Assembly: GCF_900107705.1 (NCBI RefSeq)
Contig: NZ_FNRE01000015.1
Coordinates: forward strand, 1-64,000
From: Prevotella sp. tc2-28
Lineage (GTDB): Bacteria > Bacteroidota > Bacteroidia > Bacteroidales > Bacteroidaceae
Reading direction: 5' to 3'
Length of the DNA: 64,000 bases
Part shown: positions 2,362 to 54,744 of the stretch, piece by piece
Layout: the number at the start of each line of letters is the position of its first letter
How positions within the stretch are numbered: position 1 is the first letter of the stretch
The notes under the pieces: model-generated
Seen by the model: the letters and a program-made list of their open reading frames with translations, nothing else
Databases searched by the model: none
What the model was told of the DNA's origin: nothing
Position numbers and translations under genes: made by a program

Positions 2362-3543
2362 ATGAAAATTGCGATATTGACCTCAGGCATACTTCCTATT
2401 CCTGCTGTTCAAGGAGGAGCAGTGGAAAATCTGACAGATTTTTACCTGGAATACAACAATCAGCATAGGCTACACGATATTACCATCTATAGTGTCTGGC
2501 ACCCTGATGTGGAAAGACATCCTGCCTTACAATCTACTGTCAACCATTACGTATATATCAAGGTAACAGGATTATGGGCCAAGTTGAAAAAGAAATGGCA
2601 TCAGCTTACACGTCACGAAGAGTACTACCACTATACGATAGAATTTTATCTGCAAGAAGCCATTAAGGATATAAGCAGACGCTCTTACGACATCATTTTG
2701 ATAGAAAATCGCCCTGCTTATGCACTCAAGCTAAAAGAAGTTTCCAATGCCAAGTTAGTATATCATCTCCACAATGAGAAACTGGACAGCAAATCGGAAA
2801 AAGCACTAGACATTTACAATGCAGCTACTTGCATTATAACCGTTTCCGACTATATCAAGTCACGCGTACTGACCATCAATCATTATGACAAGAAGACAAC
2901 AACCGTATACAATGGTATAGACTTGCATGCTTTTTCTTCTTGCAACCACAGTATCAACCGCAATAGTATCGGTCTTCAAGAGGATGATTTTGTGATGGTA
3001 TTCAGCGGAAGAGTGACTGCAGAAAAAGGCATCATGCAATTGATAGAAGCGATGACTCTGCTTCAAGACTTACCCAGAATCAAACTTCTTGTGATAGGCA
3101 GTTCCTTTTATGGTAACGATGATAATGAAAACTCTTTTGCAAAAGCTTTGAGGGAAAAAGCCGCACATCTGTCTGACCGTATTATTTTCACAGGATTCAT
3201 TCCTTATGCCCAGATGCCCAACTACTTACAAATAGCCGACATTGCCGTTATTCCTTCCGTATGGGACGACCCCTTCCCCACAACGGTTCTAGAGGCACTG
3301 GCTACGGGGCTTCCCATTATTTCTACTCGGCGAGGAGGAATACCAGAACAAGTAACAGAAGAATCGGCTATCCTCCTCGACACCGATGAATACTTTGTCG
3401 ACAATTTGGCCACCGCTATCCGCAATCTCTACCAACATCCCGAGAAGCGGAAAGCTTTAGGTCAGGCTGGACTTTTGCACTCCAAATATTTCGATAAGGA
3501 ACGTTTTGCAAAAGATTTCTTTAAAGCAATACAAACTATTTGA
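2362..3543 (+). CDS. Glycosyltransferase family 4
   Basis: A 393-residue GT-B fold protein. The N-terminal half has the acceptor-domain opening MKIAILTSGILPIPAVQGGAVE, where a Gly-rich loop follows the first strand. The C-terminal half has FSGRVTAEKGI and the donor-site segment DPFPTTVLEALATGLP. In that segment the usual E-x7-E pair is D-x7-E. It starts one base after the fucosyltransferase stop and is probably the second gene of that unit. It should transfer a nucleotide-activated sugar to a growing polysaccharide; the donor cannot be named. Confidence 0.85.
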   Translation: MKIAILTSGILPIPAVQGGAVENLTDFYLEYNNQHRLHDITIYSVWHPDVERHPALQSTVNHYVYIKVTGLWAKLKKKWHQLTRHEEYYHYTIEFYLQEAIKDISRRSYDIILIENRPAYALKLKEVSNAKLVYHLHNEKLDSKSEKALDIYNAATCIITVSDYIKSRVLTINHYDKKTTTVYNGIDLHAFSSCNHSINRNSIGLQEDDFVMVFSGRVTAEKGIMQLIEAMTLLQDLPRIKLLVIGSSFYGNDDNENSFAKALREKAAHLSDRIIFTGFIPYAQMPNYLQIADIAVIPSVWDDPFPTTVLEALATGLPIISTRRGGIPEQVTEESAILLDTDEYFVDNLATAIRNLYQHPEKRKALGQAGLLHSKYFDKERFAKDFFKAIQTI

Positions 3544-23686: not shown

Positions 23687-23714
23687 AGTTAAGAGTTAAG
23701 AGTTAAGAGTTAAG
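23687..23714. repeat. Four tandem AGTTAAG heptamers
   Basis: Four exact 7-bp copies lie between the divergent DUF3078 and yidC promoters, covering the -33 zone of the first and abutting the -33 box of the second. A related set occurs at 49993. Confidence 0.85.
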
Positions 23715-23720
23715 AATTAT

Positions 23721-31180: not shown

Positions 31181-31223
31181 CAGTCAAAATCACAAAAAAA
31201 ATAAAAATATAACAATAATTCAA

Positions 31224-32846
31224 ATGGTTCAACAAATTCAAAAAACGTTGAGAGACTCAGCAGCGATGCGCTGGACTGCACTACTGCTTTTGGCCATGGC
31301 CATGTTCTGTAGCTATATCTTCATGGACATTCTCTCACCCATCAAGGATCTCATGCAGGAGACACGAGGATGGGACTCTACCGCCTTTGGCACCATGCAG
31401 GGTTCCGAGGTATTCCTTAACGTATTCGTATTCTTCCTTATTTTCGCAGGCATCATCCTCGACAAGATGGGTGTTCGCTTCACAGCGGTCCTTTCAGCTG
31501 CTGTCATGTTGGTAGGTGCTTGTGTCAAGTGGTATGCAATCAGCGACAGCTTCATTGGCAGCGGATTGGAGACGTGGTTTAACAACAACTTAAACTACAT
31601 CCCGCTGTTCGACGAACTAGGGGTTTCACCCTTCTATGCCGGCATGCCTGCTTCTGCTAAGTTTGCTGCTTGCGGCTTTATGATTTTCGGTTGTGGTTGT
31701 GAAATGGCAGGCATTACCGTGTCCAGAGGTATCGTAAAGTGGTTCAAAGGTCGTGAGATGGCGCTGGCAATGGGTTCTGAGATGGCATTGGCCCGCCTGG
31801 GTGTTGCCACCTGTATGATCTTCTCGCCTTTCTTTGCCCGCCTGGGTGGTGAGGTCAGCGTTAGCCGCTCTGTTGCCTTTGGTGTCGTACTGATGTGTAT
31901 TGCGCTCATCATGACCATCGTCTATTTCTTCATGGATCAGAAACTCGACGCACAGACCGGTGAGGCTGAAGAAAAAGACGATCCCTTCAAGGTCAGCGAC
32001 ATCGGTAAGATCCTCTCCGACAGCGGTTTCTGGATTGTTGCCTTGCTGTGTGTGCTCTACTATTCTGCCATATTCCCCTTCCAGAAGTATGCTGTCAACA
32101 TGCTTCAGTGCAACCTGACACTGACATTGCCTGCAGCAGACTCTTTCTGGGCAAAACCCGACGTGACCATCATTCAGTACGTCATCATGCTTCTGGTGGC
32201 TGCAACCGGTTTTGCCTCTAACTTCCAGAAAAAGGCTAATATGAGATATGGGCTGTTGTGCATCTCTGTCCTTGCCCTGATTACCTACTGCTATATGGGC
32301 TTTATGCGTCAGTCTGCGGAGTCTATCTTTGCCGTATTCCCCTTGTTGGCAGTGCTCATCACTCCTATCCTAGGCAGTTATCTCGATCATCATGGCAAAG
32401 CAGCCACCATGCTGGTGCTGGGTTCATTGCTGCTCATTGGATGTCACCTGACATTCGCCTTTGTATTGCCCATGTTCAAGGGTAATGCGGTTGGAGGTAT
32501 CATCATTGCCTATACCACCATTTTGGTCTTGGGAGCATCATTCTCCTTGGTACCCGCTTCGTTGTGGCCCTCTGTGCCCAAGCTCGTTGATGCCAAGGTA
32601 ATTGGCTCTGCCTATGCCCTCATCTTCTGGATCCAGAACATCGGTCTCTGGCTATTTCCACTGCTCATCGGCAAGGTGCTTGATGCCACCAACCCTGGTG
32701 TCACCGACCCCACTCAGTTCGATTATACCGCGCCACTCGTCATGCTTGCCTCGCTGGGTGTAGCAGCCCTCTTGTTAGGCCTGTTGCTGAAGGTGGTTGA
32801 CAAGAAGAAAGGTATCGGACTCGAGGAGCCGAATATCAAGGCATAA
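31224..32846 (+). CDS. Major facilitator superfamily permease
   Basis: The protein has 540 residues from ATG 31224. The frame runs back to 31071, but that part lies upstream of the promoter and antisense to the phosphatase gene. Twelve or so membrane helices, the MFS loop FAGIILDKMGVRFTAVL between helices 2 and 3, and a mid-protein cytoplasmic loop (DQKLDAQTGEAEEKDD) are visible. A long periplasmic loop separates helices 3 and 4. It resembles the MFSD1-like or sugar/organic-anion MFS branch; the substrate is unknown. It is monocistronic with a strong terminator. Confidence 0.85.
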   Translation: MVQQIQKTLRDSAAMRWTALLLLAMAMFCSYIFMDILSPIKDLMQETRGWDSTAFGTMQGSEVFLNVFVFFLIFAGIILDKMGVRFTAVLSAAVMLVGACVKWYAISDSFIGSGLETWFNNNLNYIPLFDELGVSPFYAGMPASAKFAACGFMIFGCGCEMAGITVSRGIVKWFKGREMALAMGSEMALARLGVATCMIFSPFFARLGGEVSVSRSVAFGVVLMCIALIMTIVYFFMDQKLDAQTGEAEEKDDPFKVSDIGKILSDSGFWIVALLCVLYYSAIFPFQKYAVNMLQCNLTLTLPAADSFWAKPDVTIIQYVIMLLVAATGFASNFQKKANMRYGLLCISVLALITYCYMGFMRQSAESIFAVFPLLAVLITPILGSYLDHHGKAATMLVLGSLLLIGCHLTFAFVLPMFKGNAVGGIIIAYTTILVLGASFSLVPASLWPSVPKLVDAKVIGSAYALIFWIQNIGLWLFPLLIGKVLDATNPGVTDPTQFDYTAPLVMLASLGVAALLLGLLLKVVDKKKGIGLEEPNIKA

Positions 32847-32867
32847 TCACCAAATGCAAAACGAAAA

Positions 32868-32903
32868 AAGAGTCGCTATCATCCACTGGTAGCGATTCTT
32901 TTG
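32868..32903 (+). terminator. Intrinsic terminator of the MFS gene
   Basis: AAGAGTCGCTATCA pairs with TGGTAGCGATTCTT across TCCAC, then TTG and T runs; two G-T wobbles favour the plus-strand RNA. Confidence 0.85.
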
Positions 32904-32936
32904 TTTGGGCTCGTCAATAAGCGGGGGGTATTTTGC

Positions 32937-33062
32937 AATAACCCAGCCTTATTGTGAAATAACCCAGCCTTATTGTGAAATAACCCAGCCTTATTGATGA
33001 ATAACCCTTCCTTATTCAAAAATACTTCCGGAGTATGCTAAAATACTCCGAAAGAAAAAAAA
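32937..33062. repeat. Six-unit 21-bp tandem array of short dyads
   Basis: Units of 21 bp begin at 32937, 32958, 32979, 33000, 33021 and 33042. The first three read AATAACCCAGCCTTATTGTG with little change, and each contains the inverted pair AATAA/TTATT. The fourth keeps AATAACCC and TTATT with another centre. The fifth has a different but better dyad (ATACT-TCCGG-AGTAT). The sixth keeps only the left half. The array sits between a terminator and the 3' end of the leftward DUF3943 gene, so it is non-coding. Confidence 0.8.
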
Positions 33063-33104
33063 TTTACTCCAAGAGAAATGAAAACTAGTGTAATGATGAT
33101 TCGA

Positions 33105-34589
33105 TTAAAAGTAATAGGTAAATCCAGCCTTCGTCTCAAATGTCTTAGCTTCCTTGTTTGAGTGTTCCTTATAACGTGTATTTCGATGATAATAGGAACC
33201 GGAAAGGGTAAGACTGCAACGTTTCCAGAGGTCGACCTCGAAGATGGGAGTAACCACAAACAGCCCTGCATTACCTTCATCGCCCTGCACATTGAGATAG
33301 CGCAGATCGTCTATCTTAAGCTCAGACTTCTTATAACCTACCCATGTAAAGATACGGAAATACTTGACATGCAGATCGAAACGCCCCCAATTGCCAAACT
33401 CCAGGTGCGTCTTCGTCTTAATACTGAATCCGCTGCCCATGTTGTAGTCACGCTCCAGCACATTAAAGTAGTCGCTTTTGGTACCACCTAGCAAGATAGC
33501 ATCGAGAAAAAGGCGTTGTTCCCAACTGGAAATGAAACCTTTCTGGTGTTCGCCAGCAAAGATAAATCCAGGTCCCAAGGCTGCCGGTTCGCTGATACGA
33601 TAGGGTGTCTGGTCCGATCCATCAATGACTGGACTCGAATCGTAGTAGTTGAAATGCTGGTAGATGCCAAACTCGCCCAGTTTTCCGTTCTTATCCAATA
33701 TCGGAGTACTCCACAAACGTCCAACAATGTGCAGGTCGTTGATGAACGGCTGGTTAGAACTAAGACCAAAGGTAACGTCAACGTCGAAGAAATCAAAAGG
33801 AGTTGTATGCCGTTCGCCATCCACAGCATCCCCATAGACAAGGAACAGGTCGATGAAGGGATTGCTTTCACCACCCGTCAACTTGCCCTTGTCAGCCAGA
33901 TATCGCCAACCTGCCGACATGGAGAATTTAACAGGGAAACGGTGGGCGTCGTGATACTTGTAATGTGTACTCTTGACCCTCCACGCATCGCCACGTGCCA
34001 GGCGGGCAATGCCCTTCATAGGATTAATAACGAAGGCTGCCGCCTCACGCAGGAAACGTCCGAAACCGCGCTGACGATCATCGAGAATGATGTCACTCAC
34101 ACGATGCGTTATCTCACCAAGAGCCATACCACCCATCGTTGTCGTGATAATATCGTTAACAGCTGGCGGGTCTTTCTCGCCAAAGAGTTCCCACATCAGC
34201 GAACCACCCAGTGCATAAGGTGCCGACTCCCAGAAATTCATACCGTTAGAACGGGCCACATTGAAGTATAGATTACCATGATAAGGATGGGCAAACATGT
34301 TCATGATGAATACGTCGTTGTCCCACACAAAACCTGTGTTTAGGTTGTCGCGGATGGTACGCATCGTTGTTTGGGCAAACTCCTCCTTTGTGACATAACG
34401 GTTGTAGAGTTGTACACTAGTGTTCAGTGCCGTTACAGCTGCTGCCGCTACCCACGGATGCTTCTTCTGCGGCTGAGCCATAATAGAGTCAGGGCAGATA
34501 GTCGAATCAGCCTTTTCCATCGGTGTCTGCTGAGCCATCGCTGCCAACGACATCAAGAGGAACAATACCGTATGTAGTAGCTTCATCAT
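33105..34589 (-). CDS. DUF3943 outer-membrane-type protein
   Basis: The protein has 494 residues from ATG 34589. A signal peptide (LLHTVLFLLMSLAAMA) is followed by AYN-type membrane-near helices (PWVAAAAVTALNTSVQLYNRY). The DUF3943 hallmark NMFAHPYHGNLYFNVARSNGMNFWES is present, then a beta-barrel-like C-terminus ending in KAGFTYYF, with the terminal Phe of outer-membrane barrels. It is the last gene of a leftward run of five. Its function is unknown. Confidence 0.85.
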   Translation of the reverse strand: MMKLLHTVLFLLMSLAAMAQQTPMEKADSTICPDSIMAQPQKKHPWVAAAAVTALNTSVQLYNRYVTKEEFAQTTMRTIRDNLNTGFVWDNDVFIMNMFAHPYHGNLYFNVARSNGMNFWESAPYALGGSLMWELFGEKDPPAVNDIITTTMGGMALGEITHRVSDIILDDRQRGFGRFLREAAAFVINPMKGIARLARGDAWRVKSTHYKYHDAHRFPVKFSMSAGWRYLADKGKLTGGESNPFIDLFLVYGDAVDGERHTTPFDFFDVDVTFGLSSNQPFINDLHIVGRLWSTPILDKNGKLGEFGIYQHFNYYDSSPVIDGSDQTPYRISEPAALGPGFIFAGEHQKGFISSWEQRLFLDAILLGGTKSDYFNVLERDYNMGSGFSIKTKTHLEFGNWGRFDLHVKYFRIFTWVGYKKSELKIDDLRYLNVQGDEGNAGLFVVTPIFEVDLWKRCSLTLSGSYYHRNTRYKEHSNKEAKTFETKAGFTYYF

Positions 34590-34616
34590 CACAAATGCTG
34601 CGGCAAATAAAATCAA

Positions 34617-54126: not shown

Positions 54127-54744
54127 ATGAAGAAATTCGTTTTAGCAGTGATGGCTGTTGCTGCCATCGGATTCACCGCATCATGTGGTAACAAGACTCA
54201 GCAGGGTGCAAGGATTGACACCGTAGCTGTTATCGATTCTATCGCTTCTGGTGCTGCCCAGGAGGACATCGATGCCATCAGTGGTATCCTGGCATCCAAG
54301 GATGCTGCCAAGTTACAGGAAGCCCTGGCTGCTGTCAAGGAGAAGATTGCCTCGTTCATCAAGGAGAACCCTGAGGTTGCTAAGGAGTATGTGACCAAGG
54401 TTCAGGAGTTCCTGAAGGAGAACGAAGAGCAGGTAAAGGCTGTCGTTGGCGACAATGCTGCTGTAGCTGCTGCAGTTAGTGCAGTGACCGAGATTGAGCC
54501 AGAGGCTATTGTCAGCGGTCTGCTCGAACAGGTGGGCGATGCAGCCACTGAGGTCAAGGATGCTGCTGTCGATGCTGCCAACCAGAAGGTGGAAGAGGCT
54601 AAGGATGCTGCCAACCAGAAGGTAGAGGAAGCCAAGGCTGCTGCTGACAAGAAGGTGGAGGACACCAAGAATGCTGCCAAGCAGAAGACCAACGAGGCTA
54701 TCGACAACGCTGCTGCTTCTGCCAAGAAGAAGTTAGGCCTCTAA
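54127..54744 (+). CDS. Ala/Lys/Glu-rich helical lipoprotein
   Basis: A 205-residue protein. The lipobox FTASC places the lipidated cysteine near residue 20. The rest is predicted continuous helix with very high Ala, Lys and Glu. From about residue 138 come repeated units (DAANQKVEEAK twice, then related AAADKKVEDTK), giving an 11-residue periodicity like that of LEA or apolipoprotein helices. It should sit on a membrane as an amphipathic or coiled-coil rod. I do not recognise a named family. It is monocistronic with a strong terminator. Confidence 0.8.
   Translation: MKKFVLAVMAVAAIGFTASCGNKTQQGARIDTVAVIDSIASGAAQEDIDAISGILASKDAAKLQEALAAVKEKIASFIKENPEVAKEYVTKVQEFLKENEEQVKAVVGDNAAVAAAVSAVTEIEPEAIVSGLLEQVGDAATEVKDAAVDAANQKVEEAKDAANQKVEEAKAAADKKVEDTKNAAKQKTNEAIDNAAASAKKKLGL

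Follow-up and report, generated by a model that had tools for sequence, protein, structure and literature searches.

The array described here lies between two convergent genes of Prevotella sp. tc2-28, in a window that comprises the whole stretch analysed, i.e. the first 64,000 nucleotides of contig NZ_FNRE01000015.1. On one side is a plus-strand gene encoding an MFS_1 transporter (31221..32846, with the start assigned at 31221 in a longest open reading frame (ORF) running from 31071), which ends 69 bp before the array, and on the other is the convergent minus-strand gene for a DUF3943 protein (33105..34616), whose 3′ end is 67 bp from the end of the first B-type unit described below. The sequence-only reading of this DNA placed the array behind a terminator of the MFS gene. 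A terminator-like inverted repeat can indeed be seen by eye behind that gene and outside the array (32866..32902, plus strand, 16-nt arms that are 88% complementary), but it is absent from a terminator scan, which returned two other sites overlapping the array region, at 33054-33025 on the minus strand and 32910-32925 on the plus strand, compared to 0.4 in shuffled sequence. The same reading saw no ORF in the array, which is nearly right, as there is no evidence of a gene, although short ORFs do enter, cross or overlap it. Because 21 bp corresponds to seven codons, a 46-aa ORF on the minus strand and a 30-aa ORF on the plus strand run into or through the repeats, and an 84-aa ORF overlaps the array end; none of these counts as evidence of a gene.

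The array consists of eight 21-bp units (32916-33079), namely five A units and three B units, the last two B units being weak. An A unit is an AATAA-N7-TTATT dyad with a 4-bp spacer, and a B unit is of the TACT/AGTA type. The six units originally proposed are all present in 21-bp steps, starting at 32937, 32958, 32979, 33000, 33021 and 33042, while two more had been missed, an A unit at 32916 and a weak B unit at 33063-33079. The first A unit (32916..32932, AATAAGCGGGGGGTATT, identified from the sequence and the repeat listing) has one arm base off and is followed by the spacer TTGC; the second (32937..32953, AATAACCCAGCCTTATT) has the spacer GTGA; and the third (32958..32974) is identical to the second in both 17-mer and spacer, which suggests that it is a recent 21-bp duplication of its neighbour. 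The fourth (32979..32995) has the same 17-mer as the second and third with the spacer GATG, and the fifth (33000..33016, AATAACCCTTCCTTATT) is followed by CAAA, which forms the A/B junction and is similar in the orthologous array L161, discussed below. The B units are AATACTTCCGGAGTATG (33021..33037), AATACTCCGAAAGAAAA (33042..33058), in which the right half is degenerate, and the weak TTTACTCCAAGAGAAAT (33063..33079), which was placed in the 21-bp register by eye; the ortholog L161 also has B-type units on the matching side.

Tandem Repeats Finder reports positions 32929-33016 as a repeat of period 21 with 4.2 copies and 91% matches. When periods of 15 to 30 were tested over the 64-kb window, only a period of 21 gave successive units that matched the arms at 9 or 10 of 10 positions, with four such pairs, all inside the array, and the best six-unit symmetry sum was 28/30 at 32916, compared to 18-20 for six other periods. 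Two further tandem repeats were observed in the window, a 33-bp repeat of 3.5 copies at 54571-54687 (unit GATGCTGCCAACCAGAAGGTGGAGGAAGCCAAG) and a heptanucleotide repeat, AGTTAAG, of 4.7 copies at 23687-23719.

The window array is one copy of a dispersed family. A search pattern for the A unit (AATAASSNNNSSTTATT), with the reversed pattern as a control, gave 39 matches in the host genome against 0 for the control, and these 39 units fall at 22 loci including the window, the other 21 of which were read; one locus, L049, is a single unit overlapping an ORF end, which was taken as chance and left out. The period and dyad layout also recur across Prevotella, a check that the sequence-only reading had named: an A unit followed by the next left arm was found in 23 of 150 genomes of the genus, the host genome among them, with no control match in any of the 150. 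A draw of 251 genomes from the family yielded 10 positives, again including the host, in 3 of 30 genera, with a single control match (in G528), which brings the pattern-positive genomes to 32, i.e. the 23 from the genus and nine more from the family draw. Order-wide, a looser two-unit pattern matched 19 of 294 genomes besides the host, all outside the family and with one or two scattered matches each, and since the reversed control matched 24 of 295, these are attributed to chance. For the B unit, a strict two-unit pattern matched 7 of the 150 genus genomes (control 0), and all seven are among the 23 that carry the A pattern (p ~8e-7 if the genomes are treated as independent, relatedness being ignored). 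Many of the genomes searched are incomplete. A blastn search of named phages and plasmids with the 151-bp array gave no match, which is a weak test for a variable repeat, and no description of a 21-bp A/B repeat was found in a literature search that mostly excluded subscription journals, so that one may still exist.

What is retained within these units is their outer arms and their phase. Among 122 cases (unique 64-mers from both strands, which are therefore not independent), the next unit's right arm, whose bases were not fixed by the seed, is kept at 86-99% per position, whereas the centre is kept at 39-57% and the spacer at 30-43%. The arrays were found by an arm-based pattern, and while counting in the adjacent unit removes most of the resulting bias in this contrast, it still conditions on that unit's left arm. 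Between 89% and 96% of the bases at positions 6, 7, 11 and 12 are G/C, each of the two being frequent. Where exact units follow each other at no more than 70 bp, the distance is 21 bp in 55 of 58 cases, the others being 42, 44 and 63 bp, and the gap between arms is 7 bp in 105 of 108 dyads. The earlier claim that selection acts on spacing and symmetry is thus supported by the retained right arms, the 21-bp spacing and a period that holds in the ortholog, but its rider, that sequence is not what is selected, needs correcting, given that the arms hardly vary and that G/C predominates at positions 6, 7, 11 and 12. Spacing alone is no proof of selection, as the 21-bp period is also propagated by tandem duplication. 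Simple minisatellite slippage, in which the units are not recognised at all, would account for the identical adjacent units, spacer included, that are seen both in the window and in L161; it is nevertheless very improbable as the whole explanation, since arms are kept while centres vary at many loci of the 32 pattern-positive genomes and in viral contigs.

A chain of small RNA hairpins, as the sequence-only reading allowed, or a bidirectional terminator, was considered as an alternative, and pairing of the inner positions is in general not kept. In 112 distinct 17-mers, which exclude L049 and the 12 loci of a composite element described below and which include some non-independent orthologous arrays, positions 6 and 12 are complementary in 47 compared to 45.5 expected (sd 5.0) and positions 7 and 11 in 33 compared to 43.8 expected (sd 4.8); the innermost pair, 8 and 10, is complementary in 39, slightly over the 31.4 expected (sd 4.4). 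The window array does fold as RNA better than shuffled sequence (z -5.4 and -3.8), which, with the two terminator-like sites of the scan, is what speaks for a transcript-level role, but seven of the ten units of L161 folded in the same way are no better than shuffles (z -0.7 and -0.6). The units are strand-neutral, 35 being pyrimidine-rich and 34 purine-rich relative to the gene they abut. Across 14 loci searched against Rfam, only a TPP riboswitch reached its gathering score (L046, 535-630), away from the array, and the four matches that E-value mode gave within or close to the array fell far short of their gathering scores. As positions 6 and 7 do not covary with their partners, the ortholog folds no better than shuffles and neither strand is preferred, the hairpin chain is left unsupported, and it or a terminator is an extremely unlikely explanation. 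These results favour a constraint at the DNA level rather than the RNA level: because outer arms and helical phase are kept and inner pairing is not, recognition is probably on double-stranded DNA, which fits half-sites that are read independently rather than as a hairpin.

Comparison of orthologous places shows how the arrays turn over. A scan of DUF3943 genes yielded 87 loci, 80 of which were kept, and the A pattern was present at one of these, L161, from isolate RUG11590 of another species (91% protein identity). There, at a place identical to that of the window array, six A and four B units follow one another at 21-bp steps in our own register, i.e. ten units compared to eight, with the period kept, a different unit triplicated and the A/B junction alike. 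At L165 (95% identity over 319 residues) B-type units are present and the DNA beyond them is different. For 11 further DUF3943 genes the 420 bp that follow were read by eye, and no A/B array was seen; behind one of them, L173, is a short repeat of another kind. Two further orthologous sets, L105/L107 and L048/L088/L086, also retain arrays, and the latter, to which a single genome contributes both L086 and L088, has mostly retained arms and different centres.

Several observations bear on how arrays come to lie at unrelated places. The window array is 86% alike over 78 bp to the array at L031, an unrelated locus, and in genome G648 an 80-bp array-bearing stretch occurs twice, 1.3 kb apart and with 97.5% identity, with relatives at three other loci. 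In G143 three A units, 63 bp in all, lie in frame inside birA. These units are absent from the 10 relatives with a readable loop, out of 29 examined, some of which have other extra sequence there; the relatives share at most 66% protein identity, so this is not a comparison with the empty site of a sister strain. This one loop of BirA (L096 4913-5680, L243, L246, L258), occupied by an A array in one species and by unlike additional sequence in others, has the appearance of a hot spot at which small repeats settle. Inspection by eye revealed no target-site duplication or terminal repeat around free-standing arrays. Part of the family lies within a larger element, a composite noncoding repeat of ~500 bp in the host genome, for which 12 copies were aligned, several of them truncated or cut by contig ends (L032, L034-L037, L039, L040, L043-L045, L047 and L050). 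Its order is B units, a large inverted repeat of the CCCTCAC/GTGAGGG type, A units and AGTCCG/CGGACT dyads, and, by eye, no target duplication was identified around it.

Arrays are most often close to gene 3′ ends, 27 of 58 of which lie within 30 bp, compared to 3 of 38 flanking 5′ ends, and 13 of 51 arrays start at the adjacent gene's stop codon or overlapping it, gene ends here being those of a crude longest-ORF caller. The gene pairs around arrays are 26 tandem, 16 convergent and 6 divergent (n = 48), only modestly different from the other gaps at the array loci (68, 27 and 30 of 125, respectively). This closeness to 3′ ends may reflect survival rather than targeting. A common neighbouring gene was considered as the source of a binding protein and was set aside, as the neighbours belong to mixed families, with no one family shared. 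Genes for VapE, a DnaG-type zinc-ribbon protein, an HU-like (HU-HIG) protein or related proteins were observed at 9 of 62 loci (L033, L044, L048, L086, L088, L099, L104, L111 and L112), a count that has no background figure beside it and a grouping made by protein or DNA similarity, with Pfam applied to four proteins.

Dispersed short palindromes raise the question of a RAYT, a Y1 tyrosine transposase that would move the arrays as REP elements. The corresponding domain, PF01797, was sought in 58 genomes, comprising 28 of the 32 array-positive genomes, 25 array-negative genomes of the genus and 5 of the family. A long Y1_Tnp type (frames of ~250-310 aa) is present in 15 of 23 array-positive genus genomes, a figure that a fragment in G160 raises to 16, compared to 1 of 25 array-negative genomes of the genus, to which the 277-aa frame of G073 might be added as a second; the association has p ~2e-6 (16 versus 1), for a type defined post hoc and a non-random set of negatives picked mostly for completeness. 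At one locus there is also proximity, L307 (G031, reverse strand) having a four-unit B array in 21-bp register at 3003-3082, which ends ~100 bp ahead of a Y1 transposase gene. Against this, an A array is found at none of the 20 Y1_Tnp loci and a clear B array at L307 only, two others having one loose B pair each, which is near background (676 kb of other loci contain 8), and many of the 18 Y1 flanks that were read hold other palindromes, as judged by eye. Furthermore, Y1_Tnp matches are lacking altogether from 7 of the 28 array-positive genomes, including G648, which is 89% complete and has 54 pattern matches on both strands. The transposase is therefore associated with the arrays but hardly linked to them, and as the mover it is quite unlikely. 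The absence of A arrays from all 20 Y1 loci and of Y1 from seven positive genomes is the reason that the arrays are not filed here as REPs. As a separate observation, the Y1 (RAYT-like) genes of L300-L319 encode ~250-300 aa and many are flanked by their own palindromes, and at L301, L302 and L305 the Y1 protein ends in DQRTVP, which is apparently repeat-encoded.

Among known repeat systems, plasmid iterons are direct repeats about two helical turns apart that bind a protein, and they occur next to a rep gene at a replication origin; the arrays, in contrast, are scattered over chromosomes with no common neighbour. The palindromic elements of Rickettsia insert in frame and, like the array in birA, are small repeats inside genes. 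To our knowledge a phased array of short dyads is no feature of these elements, which are compared here by description. RPE-4 and RPE-6 are named as intragenic in a published account (PMC3733652). The same account describes REP, REPIN and BIME repeats, of the GTAG and CGTC superfamilies, as short dispersed palindromes that are mostly extragenic, sometimes intragenic, and may cluster (PMC3733652). The arrays are REP-like in being dispersed, mostly extragenic and of moderate copy number (39 A units at 22 loci), and differ in having no GTAG/CGTC tag in the unit consensus, no conserved stem, a 21-bp head-to-tail phase, centres that vary and an absence of A arrays next to the RAYT-like genes inspected. 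BrickBuilt of Porphyromonas gingivalis is, according to its description, a MITE/minisatellite with a 23-nt unit, AGAYCATARTATCCTCTCRTRTG, no spacers, and a leader and tail with inverted ends (PMC4596501), and the word fragment ‘palindrom’ occurs nowhere in the main text of that description. It resembles the arrays, 12 loci of which are composite, as a tandem repeat with many intergenic copies in a Bacteroidales genome and within a larger element, and differs, in a by-eye comparison with the published consensus, from their period of 21 and their sequence.

Taken together, these features make it fairly probable that the window array is a member of a dispersed, REP-like and mobile family built of phased, putative protein-binding dyads. 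The 17-bp unit (AATAA-SS-NNN-SS-TTATT, or in its B form ATTACT-N5-AGTAAT) would present two half-sites on double-stranded DNA that are read independently, and the 4-bp spacer would bring each unit to the same face of the helix as its neighbour, at a distance of two turns. A dimeric DNA-binding protein may bind each unit, with neighbours cooperating on that face, and such a putative protein would either move the arrays or depend on them. The arrays lie as multi-unit blocks at unrelated places, most often near gene 3′ ends, and vary in length by 21-bp steps, in one case apparently by 42 bp.

Arrays of this kind are also present in viral contigs, which are predicted viruses. The strict two-unit A pattern occurs in 3 viral contigs and a relaxed pattern in 15, of which 6 (including those 3) have G/C-rich centres and are of the family type by eye, and two further viral contigs have one array in common, in which B units precede A units. 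In 5 of the 6 A-array contigs the array is no more than 7 bp from the 3′ end of an ORF. Proteins were checked in L320-L322: L321 encodes an integrase and an anti-repressor, L322, from a 99-kb contig, encodes an endolysin, and three proteins of L320 have no PHROG match.

A host-serving role, in which the host retains the arrays as operator or nucleoid sites through which a resident putative DNA-binding protein structures or insulates transcription-unit ends, would agree with their closeness to gene 3′ ends and with the persistence of orthologous arrays in the window and L161, L105/L107 and L048/L088/L086. The pattern is, however, confined to 23 of 150 genus genomes, arrays turn over in both copy number and type of unit, one of them lies inside a coding sequence (birA) and viral contigs have arrays as well, all of which makes a host-serving role unlikely. 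Returning to the dispersed mobile array, it is conceivable, if doubtful, that the arrays form a mobile two-letter operator code, with A and B half-sites in strict register, that would be read by one putative dimeric protein polymerising on one DNA face, common to Prevotella chromosomes and phages, and that would thereby label or structure the DNA of host and virus alike.

Hairpins and an accompanying transposase account for REP-type repeats, whereas these arrays keep arms and phase rather than inner pairing, and they occur in both chromosomes and predicted viruses, with a patchy distribution between species. They accordingly offer a ready bait for a putative DNA-binding protein in Prevotella and turn the movement of rows of sites into a testable question.

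The other 9 viral contigs with the relaxed pattern are AT-rich or unlike the arrays and are probably unrelated to the family. Six viral contigs (L334, L335, L340, L342, L344 and L345) have in common a similar AT-rich 21-bp pair of AATAA/TTATT units, likewise probably unrelated to the arrays, and in five of the six the pair adjoins a gene whose product starts MKEG.HLSDAL.
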